In this document: positions 200 to 37,389 of the stretch, piece by piece
Layout of the letters: every line of letters starts with the position of its first letter
How positions within the stretch are numbered: position 1 is the stretch's first letter
Source of the DNA: Gammaproteobacteria bacterium
GTDB lineage: Bacteria > Pseudomonadota > Gammaproteobacteria > Xanthomonadales > Marinicellaceae
Length of the DNA stretch: 40,629 bases
Reading direction: 5' to 3'
NCBI GenBank assembly: GCA_024280395.1
Contig: JAJRQG010000018.1
Location: 1 to 40,629, forward strand
Position numbers and translations under genes: made by a program
The notes under the pieces: model-generated
What the model saw: only the letters and a program-made list of their open reading frames with translations
What the model was told of the DNA's origin: nothing
Databases searched by the model: none

Positions 200-1066
200 T
201 CAATAAAAAGGTGGCTCGCCCTCAGGCTGAATACTGAATCGTTTGTAGGTCCATTGGTACTGTTCGGGTGCTTTATCAACAATGCTTTGGATTTTACTGT
301 TCATATAAGCGACAGAATCTTCTAAGTTAGAATGAATTTCTTCGCCACTTTCTTCAAAAAATACATCAAAGCCATTTTTTGTTCTCAATGCATAGGCAAA
401 AAATACGGGCACTTTGGTTTTAACGGCCAATTTAGAAAACAAGGTCATGGTATAGGTGGGTATGCCATAAAAAGGAGCGAAAACACCTTGCCCACCTTTT
501 GGTCGTTGGTCGGGCAAAATGGCCACAAAGCCTTTATCTTTTAGGTGTATCATGATTTTTCTGACACCTTTTAAGTTGGCTTCTATTTGTAAGGCTTTGG
601 ATTTTCCTCGGAAATCGACCAAGATTTTTTCTATGTATTTATCGCCAGGAGGTTTGTACAAAAAAGCAAATTTATCAAAACGTGCCAAGATCAGATTCAA
701 TACTTCCCAGTTGCCCATGTGGGGTGCGGCCAGTAACAATCCTTTGCCTTGTGCCAGTGCATTTGTAAGTTTTTCTAAGCCATAGATGTTCTGGACGACA
801 TTGTTAACCTCTAATTTTTTGTCCCATAACTTTCCCAATTCCATCATGTTCATAACGGCAGCATTCATGCTTTTTTTGGCTAGGCTTATTTTCTGCGCTT
901 CAGACAAATCTGGATAACATCTTTCAATATTGGTTAGGGTGACATGCTTGGTTTTTTTTGAAAGTTTCCATGTGATTTTACCTAAAAATCTAGCCACTGA
1001 CCTACTGCGCTTTAAGGACAATGCATTGCTGAGTTTCAGAATAAGTTTAAAAATAAATGCTTTCAA
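200..1066 (-). CDS. Lipid A biosynthesis acyltransferase, LpxL/HtrB family
   Basis: This 288-residue protein belongs to the LpxL/LpxM (HtrB/MsbB) family, which transfers a secondary acyl chain from acyl-ACP onto Kdo2-lipid IVA at the inner face of the cytoplasmic membrane. The catalytic H-x4-E motif is visible in APHMGNWE, with His about 116 and Glu about 121. An amphipathic N-terminal segment suits membrane association, and the length is close to the usual 300. The only start able to cover the full domain is TTG at 1064-1066, because an in-frame stop lies just upstream; no good ribosome binding site precedes it. It could be LpxL or LpxM-like, as position specificity cannot be read from sequence. 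It probably shares a transcript with the secreted protein downstream. Confidence 0.88.
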   Translation of the reverse strand: MKAFIFKLILKLSNALSLKRSRSVARFLGKITWKLSKKTKHVTLTNIERCYPDLSEAQKISLAKKSMNAAVMNMMELGKLWDKKLEVNNVVQNIYGLEKLTNALAQGKGLLLAAPHMGNWEVLNLILARFDKFAFLYKPPGDKYIEKILVDFRGKSKALQIEANLKGVRKIMIHLKDKGFVAILPDQRPKGGQGVFAPFYGIPTYTMTLFSKLAVKTKVPVFFAYALRTKNGFDVFFEESGEEIHSNLEDSVAYMNSKIQSIVDKAPEQYQWTYKRFSIQPEGEPPFY

Positions 1067-1143: not shown

Positions 1144-1181
1144 AAAAAAAAACCACTCGGTCAAATTAGTTGAGTGGTTTT
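1144..1181 (-). terminator. Intrinsic terminator of sRNA B
   Basis: On the minus strand a 10-bp stem (AAAACCACTC at 1181-1172 with its complement at 1158-1149) and a 13-nt loop run into a T-tract, seen as A at 1144-1152 on the plus strand. No protein gene on the minus strand ends here, so it needs a non-coding transcript to serve. Confidence 0.85.
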
Positions 1182-1270
1182 CCCCTTTTAAATCTTCCTG
1201 ATTTTTTCCTTCTTCATGGTCCTTGAACATCCTTATTAAATTTGAGAAATATCCACGTTCTCAATTCCAC
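1144..1270 (-). ncRNA. Candidate CsrB/RsmZ-type small RNA (copy B)
   Basis: No protein gene covers this stretch. Read on the minus strand it forms a compact RNA of about 127 nt between a plausible start near 1270 and a strong intrinsic terminator. It contains seven GGA motifs (TCC on the plus strand at 1181, 1196, 1207, 1220, 1230, 1252 and 1266). At least three sit in hairpin loops: 1242-1264 (7-bp stem TTGAGAA/TTCTCAA, loop CGTGGATAT), 1190-1204 (5-bp stem, loop AGGAA) and a UUCA/UGAA stem around AGGACCA near 1215-1229. Repeated loop GGA is the hallmark of RNAs that sequester the translational regulator CsrA/RsmA. The assignment is by structure and promoter layout, not by sequence similarity to a named sRNA. 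Confidence 0.72.
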
Positions 1271-1276
1271 ATTTCT

Positions 1277-1342
1277 ATTGTGACAAAAAACCAAAACATT
1301 GGTATAGGAAAACCGTGTAATCTTTGTAGGAAAATTCATACA
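1277..1342 (-). promoter_or_regulatory. Promoter of sRNA B with GacA/UvrY-like upstream site
   Basis: An 18-bp imperfect palindrome, TGTATGAATTTTCCTACA read on the minus strand (1342-1325), has the geometry of the GacA/UvrY/LetA box TGTAAG-N6-CTTACA. Then come CCTATA at 1308-1303, a 20-bp gap and a -10-like CACAAT at 1282-1277 followed by AGAAAT. The same elements occur at the same spacings before sRNA A. The -35 region is poor, as expected for an activator-dependent promoter. Confidence 0.6.
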
Positions 1343-1367
1343 AAACACATTTTTCAAGCGATTTAAT

Positions 1368-1397
1368 AAAAAAAACCGCTAGAGGTAAATCTAGCGG
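1368..1397 (-). terminator. Intrinsic terminator of sRNA A
   Basis: A perfect 8-bp stem, CCGCTAGA/TCTAGCGG (1390-1397 with 1376-1383), and a six-base loop are followed on the minus strand by eight T, seen as A at 1368-1375. It terminates a leftward transcript that contains no protein gene. Confidence 0.88.
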
Positions 1398-1546
1398 CTC
1401 AATATTTTAGGTCATCCTAACCCCCTCCGTTTCCCCGAGTGCAATCCAATTGCCAAGCGACCACCTTCCTTACGCAGCTGCCTGATGCTATATCCTTTAA
1501 TGTCCTTAATTAGCATAACAAATCATCCATCGACTTGCTTCCATGA
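1368..1546 (-). ncRNA. Candidate CsrB/RsmZ-type small RNA (copy A)
   Basis: This is a second minus-strand non-coding transcript of about 179 nt, directly upstream of copy B and in the same direction. Nine GGA motifs occur (TCC on the plus strand at 1415, 1426, 1432, 1445, 1467, 1493, 1503, 1526 and 1540). Some are presented in loops: the 1441-1453 hairpin has stem GCAA/TTGC and loop TTGGA, and the 1485-1516 hairpin has a 6-bp stem ATGCTA/TAGCAT enclosing two AGGA motifs. It ends in a textbook terminator. A 34-codon ORF (1412-1516, minus) overlaps it but has no ribosome binding site. The motif density and upstream site fit a CsrA/RsmA-titrating RNA. The family call is inferred from structure. 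Confidence 0.72.
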
Positions 1547-1551
1547 TTTCT

Positions 1552-1617
1552 ATTATCCCTATATCTAAATGTTTGACTATAGGAAAAAAACCTTTCGTTT
1601 GTAGGAAAAATCCTACA
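1552..1617 (-). promoter_or_regulatory. Promoter of sRNA A with GacA/UvrY-like upstream site
   Basis: The 18-bp site at 1600-1617 has perfect 7-bp arms TGTAGGA/TCCTACA, matching TGTAAG-N6-CTTACA except for G in place of A at position 5 of each arm. A further half-site TGTAGGA lies at 1621-1627. On the minus strand CCTATA (1584-1579), a weak -35 TAGTCA and, 16 bp on, the -10 GATAAT (1557-1552) follow. The distance from box edge to -10 (43 bases) equals that of copy B. The box centre falls near -62, typical for this class of activator site. Confidence 0.65.
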
Positions 1618-1772
1618 AGTTGTAGGAACACCCAGAAAAGTCAGTACTAAATGGAACCATTTAAATCATTGGAACCATCAAACACTTAACGGAATTTTGA
1701 ATGGGTTCTAGGTGTTTCTAGTTTAATGGTGTTATTAGATAAACAAAACTCCCACTTTTTTTCAAAGTTTTT

Positions 1773-1784: not shown

Positions 1785-2222
1785 ATGAAAGCATTAATCC
1801 AAAGAGTAAAACAGGCCAAAGTAGTGGTAGATGGCAAGACTGTGGGTGAAATCAATCAAGGAATTTTGGCATTTATTGGGGTTGAACAATCGGATACAAC
1901 AATCAATGCAGACAAACTATTGAAGAAAATAATGAGCTACCGAATATTTTCAGATGAGAATGGAAAAATGAATCTGTCACTACAGGACATTCAAGGTGGA
2001 CTATTGTTGGTTTCACAATTTACCTTGGTTGCCAACACGCAAAAAGGATTAAGACCCAGTTTTTCTAATGCCGGCTCTCCTGATTTGAGCAAACAGCTTT
2101 ATGGCTATATGATTGAACAAGCACAAAATACATCGTTAACCATTCAGACCGGTGTATTTGCTGCAGACATGGAAGTTTCTCTGGTTAATGATGGTCCCGT
2201 GACCTTTAATCTACAATGCTGA
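1785..2222 (+). CDS. dtd: D-aminoacyl-tRNA deacylase
   Basis: A 145-residue protein, the usual length of DTD. The enzyme hydrolyses D-aminoacyl-tRNAs (for example D-Tyr-tRNA) in the cytoplasm, preventing D-amino acids from blocking translation. Both active-site signatures are present: SQFTL at residues 77-81 and the Gly-cisPro motif GPVT at 137-140. The usual TGxFGADM segment reads TGVFAADM, a mild change. The gene starts a rightward cluster, and its 3' end overlaps the start of the GGT-like gene by 7 bases, implying translational coupling. The -10 element immediately before the ATG suggests the transcript begins at the start codon. Confidence 0.95.
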   Translation: MKALIQRVKQAKVVVDGKTVGEINQGILAFIGVEQSDTTINADKLLKKIMSYRIFSDENGKMNLSLQDIQGGLLLVSQFTLVANTQKGLRPSFSNAGSPDLSKQLYGYMIEQAQNTSLTIQTGVFAADMEVSLVNDGPVTFNLQC

Positions 2223-37127: not shown

Positions 37128-37174
37128 GGTTTTTTCTCCATCGCCCACCGCGATTGTATAATTAAAGTGATATT

Positions 37175-37354
37175 ACAGGCAGGTCTCCGGACTTAAAAGA
37201 TGGCATTTATCGCCTTCCCGAACAATGGAATTGTTCAGTGGCATAATTGATAAATGTATAATTTATTACCGTTACGGGGGTAGTTCTGGAATTGAATACA
37301 TTGTTCTCACCAGATTCCCTTTTCACCGAAAGCATGCTTCCGACACCTATAACA
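37175..37354 (-). promoter_or_regulatory. Cobalamin riboswitch upstream of btuB
   Basis: Read on the minus strand the leader runs from GTTATAGGTG near 37353 through AAAAGGGAATCTGGTG and the core ACTACCCCCGTAACGG to the B12 box AGTCCGGAGACCTGCCTG at 37193-37176. These blocks occur in the order and spacing of the AdoCbl riboswitch class. Adenosylcobalamin binding should lower btuB expression, probably by masking its ribosome binding site. About 48 bases separate the B12 box from the start codon. Confidence 0.93.
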
Positions 37355-37360
37355 AGACGA

Positions 37361-37389
37361 ATTTTAACCCCACAAGCCTGACTATCCAA
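37361..37389 (-). promoter_or_regulatory. Promoter of the btuB riboswitch transcript
   Basis: TTGGAT (37389-37384) and TAAAAT (37366-37361) are separated by exactly 17 bases on the minus strand. Transcription would start at about 37354, at the first conserved block of the riboswitch. Confidence 0.7.

Follow-up and report, generated by a model that had tools for sequence, protein, structure and literature searches.

Two predicted CsrA-sequestering RNAs preceded by GacA-type boxes in a genome of the Marinicellaceae

What is encoded by the 718-base gap at positions 1067–1784 of contig JAJRQG010000018.1, from a gammaproteobacterium of the family Marinicellaceae? The window analysed here is this entire contig (40,629 nucleotides (nt); contig C47 of a 3.77-Mb draft genome, G000), and the gap lies between an acyltransferase gene and dtd. 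The original prediction, made from the sequence alone, held that the gap contains no protein gene and two leftward transcription units, each closed by a terminator and carrying nine and seven GGA motifs, and that these are RNAs that sequester CsrA/RsmA. Its description of the gap was borne out. There was no open reading frame (ORF) of 60 or more amino acids (aa) within 1067–1784, the longest ORFs overlapping 1100–1620 were at most 47 aa, and the minus strand holds two leftward units, each with a terminator. RNA B (1368–1546, minus strand) is about 179 nt long and contains 9 GGA; RNA A (1148–1271, minus strand) is about 124 nt long and contains 7 GGA, counted in 1148–1272. The start sites of both are predicted. 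We conclude with confidence that the gap encodes noncoding RNAs, RNA B and probably also RNA A, that would be activated by GacA and would sequester CsrA. Taken singly, the role of a GacA-driven CsrA sponge is very probable for RNA B and probable for RNA A.

The GGA content of the two units is the highest in the window. When both strands of the contig were scanned in steps of 10, nine GGA were attained by 3 of 8098 segments of 146 nt, all three of which overlap RNA B, and seven were attained by 1 of 8108 segments of 92 nt, which is RNA A. The word TCC does not occur on the minus strand of either RNA. Compared with dinucleotide shuffles, the GGA excess of RNA B was modest (P = 0.011; A-N-GGA, P = 0.003), and with the terminator included the values were P = 0.024 for GGA and P = 0.001 for A-N-GGA. 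In the folding ensemble, 8 of the 9 GGA sites of RNA B were more than half unpaired without the terminator and 7 of 9 with it; for RNA A, these numbers were 6 of 7 and 5 of 7. GGA motifs had been assigned to the loops of four small hairpins. All four can be drawn and three do hold GGA in the loop (one each in 1190–1204 and 1242–1264, and two in 1485–1516), but in the hairpin at 1441–1453 the motif is split, its A falling in the stem and its GG in the loop. Of the two hairpins in RNA A, the minimum-energy fold contains 1190–1204 but not 1242–1264, which does form when a longer stretch is folded. The terminator of RNA B (1373–1400, minus strand) was found by a stem scan and consists of an 11-pair stem and a T-run, with 100% of its helix cells paired across 11 sequences of the genus. 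That of RNA A (1144–1181, minus strand), recognized from the sequence and fold, has a stem, a 13-nt loop and a T-run, and was missed by the terminator scan because the scan was limited to loops of 3–8 nt.

The best evidence, which the original prediction overlooked, is a pair of GacA boxes. The consensus of the GacA/UvrY box is TGTAAGN6CTTACA in the available text of two papers (PMC4682653; PMC4950607), and we searched for TGTARGN6CYTACA, in which R and Y allow for the variable positions. A predicted box without mismatches lies at 1600–1617, ahead of RNA B, and another with one mismatch lies at 1325–1342, ahead of RNA A. The interval first proposed for the RNAs ends on the last base of the RNA B box (1617), and the box itself was not mentioned. 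At up to one mismatch the window contains 2 boxes, compared with 0.19 expected, and both precede the two RNAs; 1 of 100 shuffles has two. Exact boxes numbered 3 in the whole genome, compared with 0 for a reversed control.

Additionally, the boxes stand at a fixed distance from promoter-like elements. A −10 element of RNA B, GATAAT (1552–1557, minus strand), was recognized as a promoter-like match and by its place 42 nt after the box; promoter-like matches around RNA B were no commoner than in shuffles. RNA A has a −10-like CACAAT (1277–1282, minus strand), also 42 nt after its box. The distance from the box end to the best −10 hexamer was 42 nt in 12 of 12 RNAs of the genus (RNA B in 11 of 11 genomes, and RNA A) and 43–44 nt in all 12 loci from Marinicella and its near kin. 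Because each hexamer was chosen as the best among 12 offsets, a single agreement in spacing is worth about 1 in 12. Ten of the Marinicella and near-kin loci are labelled Marinicella and two (L115 and L122) are labelled otherwise; their boxes were picked by eye, and six are off consensus, one by 1 base, two by 2 and three by 3. No clear −10 element was seen in five further loci (L095, L096, L126, L127 and L180). We also read from the sequence a half-site-like TTCCTATA, unscored, 14 nt downstream of the RNA B box (1578–1585, minus strand), the same TTCCTATA 14 nt downstream of the RNA A box (1303–1310, minus strand), and an extra half-site-like TTCCTACA immediately upstream of the RNA B box (1621–1628, minus strand).

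RNA B is conserved throughout its genus, and its helices covary. A DNA search with the gap in 41 genomes (its own, 10 others of the genus and 30 outside it) matched 11, namely its own and all 10 other genus genomes, and none of the 30 outside the genus. RNA B is flanked by the acyltransferase gene and dtd, and preceded by an exact box, in 10 of the 11 genus genomes. In the remaining one (G002), dtd was seen, the box has one extra base, and the acyltransferase gene was not found in the 3.1-kb stretch. RNAalifold predicted 43 pairs from the 11 RNA B sequences, 20 of which have changes on both sides. None of 500 shuffles had as many, and slid versions of the alignment had at most 8. The comparison with the slid versions is biased in favour of the structure, which came from this very alignment. 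In total, 91.3% of the alignment cells pair; four measures were matched by 0 of 500 shuffles and a fifth by 2 of 500. A covariance model (R1) built from these 11 sequences gave one RNA B match in each of the 11 genus genomes. A second model (R2) retained just the terminator helix and played no part in the searches.

Likely partners of such RNAs are also encoded in the genome. Absence of csrA had been named in advance as grounds for rejecting the idea; a single csrA is present (92.9 bits, cut-off 27) and adjoins alaS. A GacA-like protein is encoded on another contig (G000:C58), and its best-matching family is UvrY/SirA/GacA. We compared GacA scores in 50 of 80 genomes with an acyltransferase locus, uncorrected for kinship and with the RNA-bearing class assigned by ourselves. 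A GacA match was found in 22 of 23 RNA-bearing genomes, at 229–303 bits, and in 26 of the 27 remaining genomes, at 178–265 bits, with 24 of these at or below 234. Two loci, L122 and L131 (GacA at 260–265 bits), break this pattern; L131 was inspected because of its GacA score and no RNA was seen.

Based on these results, we propose that a phosphorylated GacA/UvrY-type response regulator would bind the 18-bp box, which lies some 63 bp ahead of the predicted start, and thereby turn on transcription. The 7–9 GGA sites of each RNA, many of them in hairpin loops, would bind CsrA. CsrA would thus be drawn off its target mRNAs, and CsrA-repressed messages would be translated. We infer transcription, the start sites, binding by GacA and CsrA and the physiological effect from sequence. 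At that level, the marks of the CsrB/RsmZ class are found in both RNAs: a noncoding unit with promoter and terminator, unpaired GGA motifs, a box, and csrA in the genome. RNA B additionally has a conserved GGA structure. Thus, the claim that these are CsrA/RsmA-sequestering RNAs is supported by the presence of csrA, the compensatory changes in RNA B and the fixed spacing of the GacA boxes.

Homologous loci were also found beyond the genus. An acyltransferase-alignment search of named genomes, of which 80 of 445 loci were kept, gave 66–74% identity for assemblies labelled Alcanivoracaceae or Lysobacterales bacterium and 49–51% for Marinicella. Marinicella, a marine bacterium, belongs to the Marinicellaceae, Lysobacterales, and the source genus would stand beside it. 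At 19 of the 80 loci, the 1100 bases preceding the acyltransferase gene contain a box with at most one mismatch. The genus set already includes nine of these 19, and several Marinicella loci belong to genomes that also occur in the family set, so that the two sources do not give independent counts. GGA-rich RNAs lie behind the box in Marinicella loci (for example, L116, L118, L120 and L123), and three other Lysobacterales assemblies carry such RNAs upstream of the acyltransferase gene. One of these (L180) has an exact box and 14 GGA; the other two (L126 and L127) have one-mismatch boxes with 7 and 5 GGA, and L126 is without a recognized terminator. In a third genus of the family (L095 and L096) we found an RNA with 10 and 12 GGA; dtd adjoins that of L096. 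The stretches of 1.6 kb (L095) and 3.0 kb (L096) yielded no acyltransferase gene. In L111, the acyltransferase gene lies at a different place, without an RNA. In loci labelled Lysobacter, Luteimonas, Stenotrophomonas or Pseudoxanthomonas, the 1100 bases ahead of the acyltransferase gene showed no box, even with two mismatches allowed.

Several observations weigh against our interpretation; those concerning RNA A are taken first. They bear on the possibility that RNA B alone is functional, RNA A being a partial copy in decay or a stretch that arose by chance in one species, which we consider unlikely, though it is the strongest of the alternatives. RNA A was seen in this species only. Conservation in relatives, proposed as a check on the original prediction, held for RNA B, whose hairpins are kept with compensatory changes, but none of the 10 other genus genomes has an orthologue of RNA A. 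Folding, another proposed check, favoured RNA B over shuffles (z = −2.09) but not RNA A (z = −0.36). The GGA excess of RNA A was nearly reached by dinucleotide shuffles and was not significant (P = 0.064; A-N-GGA, P = 0.30), nor was it with the terminator included (P = 0.11 and 0.29). Its −10 element is weak, its box has a mismatch, and one-mismatch boxes were not enriched genome-wide (22 compared with 20 for the reversed control), so that the RNA A box is informative only through its place. That place, however, argues for function, as the spacings of box, half-site and −10 element equal those of RNA B. In addition, the 7 GGA and 0 TCC in 92 nt are the maximum of the window, and the terminator is strong. 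R1, in whose training RNA A had no part, found it as the second match within the window (1145–1277, 22.2 bits, E = 3.5e-4, with E-values being rough; the next match had 10.3 bits), but in the genome-wide run it fell short of the threshold of E = 0.001.

The other contrary observations concern the relatives and the sensor. In 22 family genomes outside the genus, R1 gave three weak matches (L078, L079 and L080) and nothing convincing in 21 of the 22. L078 has the box and synteny, but only 3 GGA are present at this locus (identical with L121) and at the homologous locus L122. We rejected L079 and L080 (E about 1e-4) as homologues; both lack an acyltransferase gene and any box within one mismatch, and they appear to be terminators hit by chance. 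The circuit that had been proposed, BarA/UvrY (GacS/GacA)–CsrA, was recovered in part. csrA is present, as is a gene for a GacA-like protein whose score on the UvrY/SirA/GacA model, 272.1 bits, is under the cut-off of 280, but no canonical BarA/GacS sensor was found. The genome has 24 HATPase matches; ten proteins were scanned, GyrB and nine histidine kinases, and the best of the nine kinases reached 432.8 bits compared with the BarA cut-off of 890. The BarA-type sensor domain sCache_4 was absent from the genome (0 of 1), with a positive control in Escherichia coli. Finally, one RNA-bearing assembly (L106) had no GacA match at E = 1e-40.

It is improbable that RNA B is instead a cis-acting leader, an attenuator or riboswitch of the downstream acyltransferase gene, and not a free RNA. 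RNA B and the gene do share an orientation, with the terminator preceding the gene, and in Marinicella loci the RNA precedes the acyltransferase gene and dtd is absent from the stretch covered. However, a GacA box and many GGA loops are foreign to a leader switch, and Rfam found no riboswitch in the gap. In the third genus, the similar RNA of L096 adjoins dtd, with no acyltransferase gene found in the 3-kb locus. Moreover, by our own reading, several relatives have a TATTAT-like word in the interval from terminator to gene, which may be a −10 element belonging to the gene itself. Least probable of all is that the GGA words serve small peptide genes as ribosome-binding sites: AGGA resembles a Shine–Dalgarno sequence and minus-strand ORFs of 22–47 aa overlap the units, but when the 11 homologues are aligned, indels of lengths not divisible by three appear and the helices show compensatory changes.

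How do these sponge candidates compare with known RNAs? Rfam gave no family at gathering score in the gap, the relaxed matches being unrelated, and six homologous loci matched no family either. The CsrB model RF00018 reached its cut-off in none of 33 family genomes, with one weak match, and the E. coli control passed. The expectation that similarity-based annotation would miss these RNAs therefore proved right. This kind of RNA is well known, and RNA A and RNA B are, as far as our searches show, new members that lie outside every Rfam family and look, and probably work, like CsrB/RsmZ. RsmX, RsmY and RsmZ of Pseudomonas are alike in having repeated unpaired GGA motifs, an 18-bp box TGTAAG-N6-CTTACA upstream and several RNAs per genome. 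Their boxes lie at −75 (rsmY) and −196 (rsmZ) in the available text of PMC4950607, whereas the RNAs described here have the box near −63, are sited beside dtd and the acyltransferase gene, and match nothing in Rfam. The Pf1 small RNA of Pseudoalteromonas is CsrB-type, has little sequence similarity to E. coli CsrB and was tested with CsrA, as the text available of PMC9927453 describes; it differs in having about 21 GGA motifs and belongs to another lineage. CsrB and CsrC of E. coli share the GGA sites and the 18-nt inverted repeat for UvrY, and csrB has a further half-site-like TGTAGGAGA beside that repeat (PMC4682653, in the part available). The centre of the csrB box lies at −183/−182 in the same source, and in this, as in the unmet RF00018 cut-off, the RNAs here are unlike csrB.

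Xanthomonas is in the same order as the Marinicellaceae (NCBI taxonomy). RsmU of Xanthomonas campestris is an RsmA-binding RNA derived from a 3′-untranslated region, and we liken it to RNA A and RNA B by description, not by sequence. In the available text of two papers, Xanthomonas is reported to be without a CsrB/Rsm homologue (PMC7286519; PMC7694677). We found no report on CsrA in Marinicella or on 'small RNA' in the Marinicellaceae in a literature search that excluded most subscription journals. In a genome of the Marinicella group, we observed another GGA-rich locus (L185; G023:C7:232421–232732, minus strand), with 19 GGA in 400 nt on one strand and 24 bits on the CsrB model (cut-off 71), which is possibly a second, larger CsrB-like RNA.

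The genes that flank the gap are a lipid-A/lysophospholipid-type acyltransferase gene (200–1066, minus strand), whose best NCBIfam match of 190.7 bits is under the model's cut-off of 281, and dtd (1785–2222, plus strand), encoding D-aminoacyl-tRNA deacylase (TIGR00256, 195.1 bits, cut-off 101.5). Elsewhere in the window, the Rfam scan found a Cobalamin riboswitch (37161–37365, minus strand, 116.4 bits).

Boxes elsewhere in G000 were considered as marks of further sponge RNAs and rejected. The exact boxes on C57 and C69 lie before an apparent transposase gene (by eye), the box at C110:37109 lies before gpmA, and none of the three has an RNA with a GGA density like that of RNA B. The one-mismatch boxes inspected were those at C47, C110:37109, C99, C53 and C13:1924. 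The C57 and C69 sites (L028 and L029) are repeats with exact GacA-type boxes directly ahead of the apparent transposase gene, and thus the box pattern is also carried by a repeat family. In G007, boxes on C94 and C24 were likewise rejected, with 2–5 GGA in the 218 nt examined. The same genome has several perfect boxes near protein genes (L012, L018, L060 and L064), and some of the proteins look exported when judged by eye. These boxes hint at a wider direct GacA regulon in G007.

A related pattern, TGTAGGN6CMTACA, occurred 30 times in forward and 22 times in reverse orientation in the 11 genus genomes, compared with 1 and 3 for the reversed control, with palindromic sites scored on both strands. 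A GacA-type box lies upstream of a phosphoglycerate mutase gene in at least 8 of the 11 genomes (gpmA in 2 and gpmI in 6). It precedes gpmA in G000 (L030, G000:C110:37109) and G002 (L066). In the six genus genomes where gpmI was matched, it precedes that unrelated gene in every case (L186–L191); three of these boxes are exact and three have one mismatch at the first base. G001, G005 and G007 had no gpmI match, and their gpmA genes are outside the count of 8. The GpmA of G000 and the GpmI of G009 exceed their NCBIfam cut-offs. By our own reading, these boxes end 18–19 nt before a TATAAT word, over the −35 position, in all but G009, a position that would suit activation or repression. In this genus, a GacA-type regulator may control carbon flow twice, through CsrA-sponge RNAs and directly at phosphoglycerate mutase, whether gpmA or gpmI, a suggestion that we put forward tentatively and with somewhat more doubt than belief. 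If it is true, the regulator site followed the reaction and not the gene, the box being kept where GpmI replaces GpmA.

RNAs of the CsrB type change sequence fast, and for this reason similarity searches miss them and lineages can look free of them. Because boxed GGA-rich RNAs are syntenic in the Marinicellaceae and a few other Lysobacterales, and no box was found at the syntenic position in loci labelled Lysobacter, Luteimonas, Stenotrophomonas and Pseudoxanthomonas, our results suggest that an ancestral Gac–Csr RNA locus may have been lost or replaced in the branch of these genera. The candidate RNAs were found in an order whose plant pathogens reportedly lack the classical CsrB/Rsm versions, and the analysis yields a covariance model for the RNA family and cultured genera in which it can be tested.
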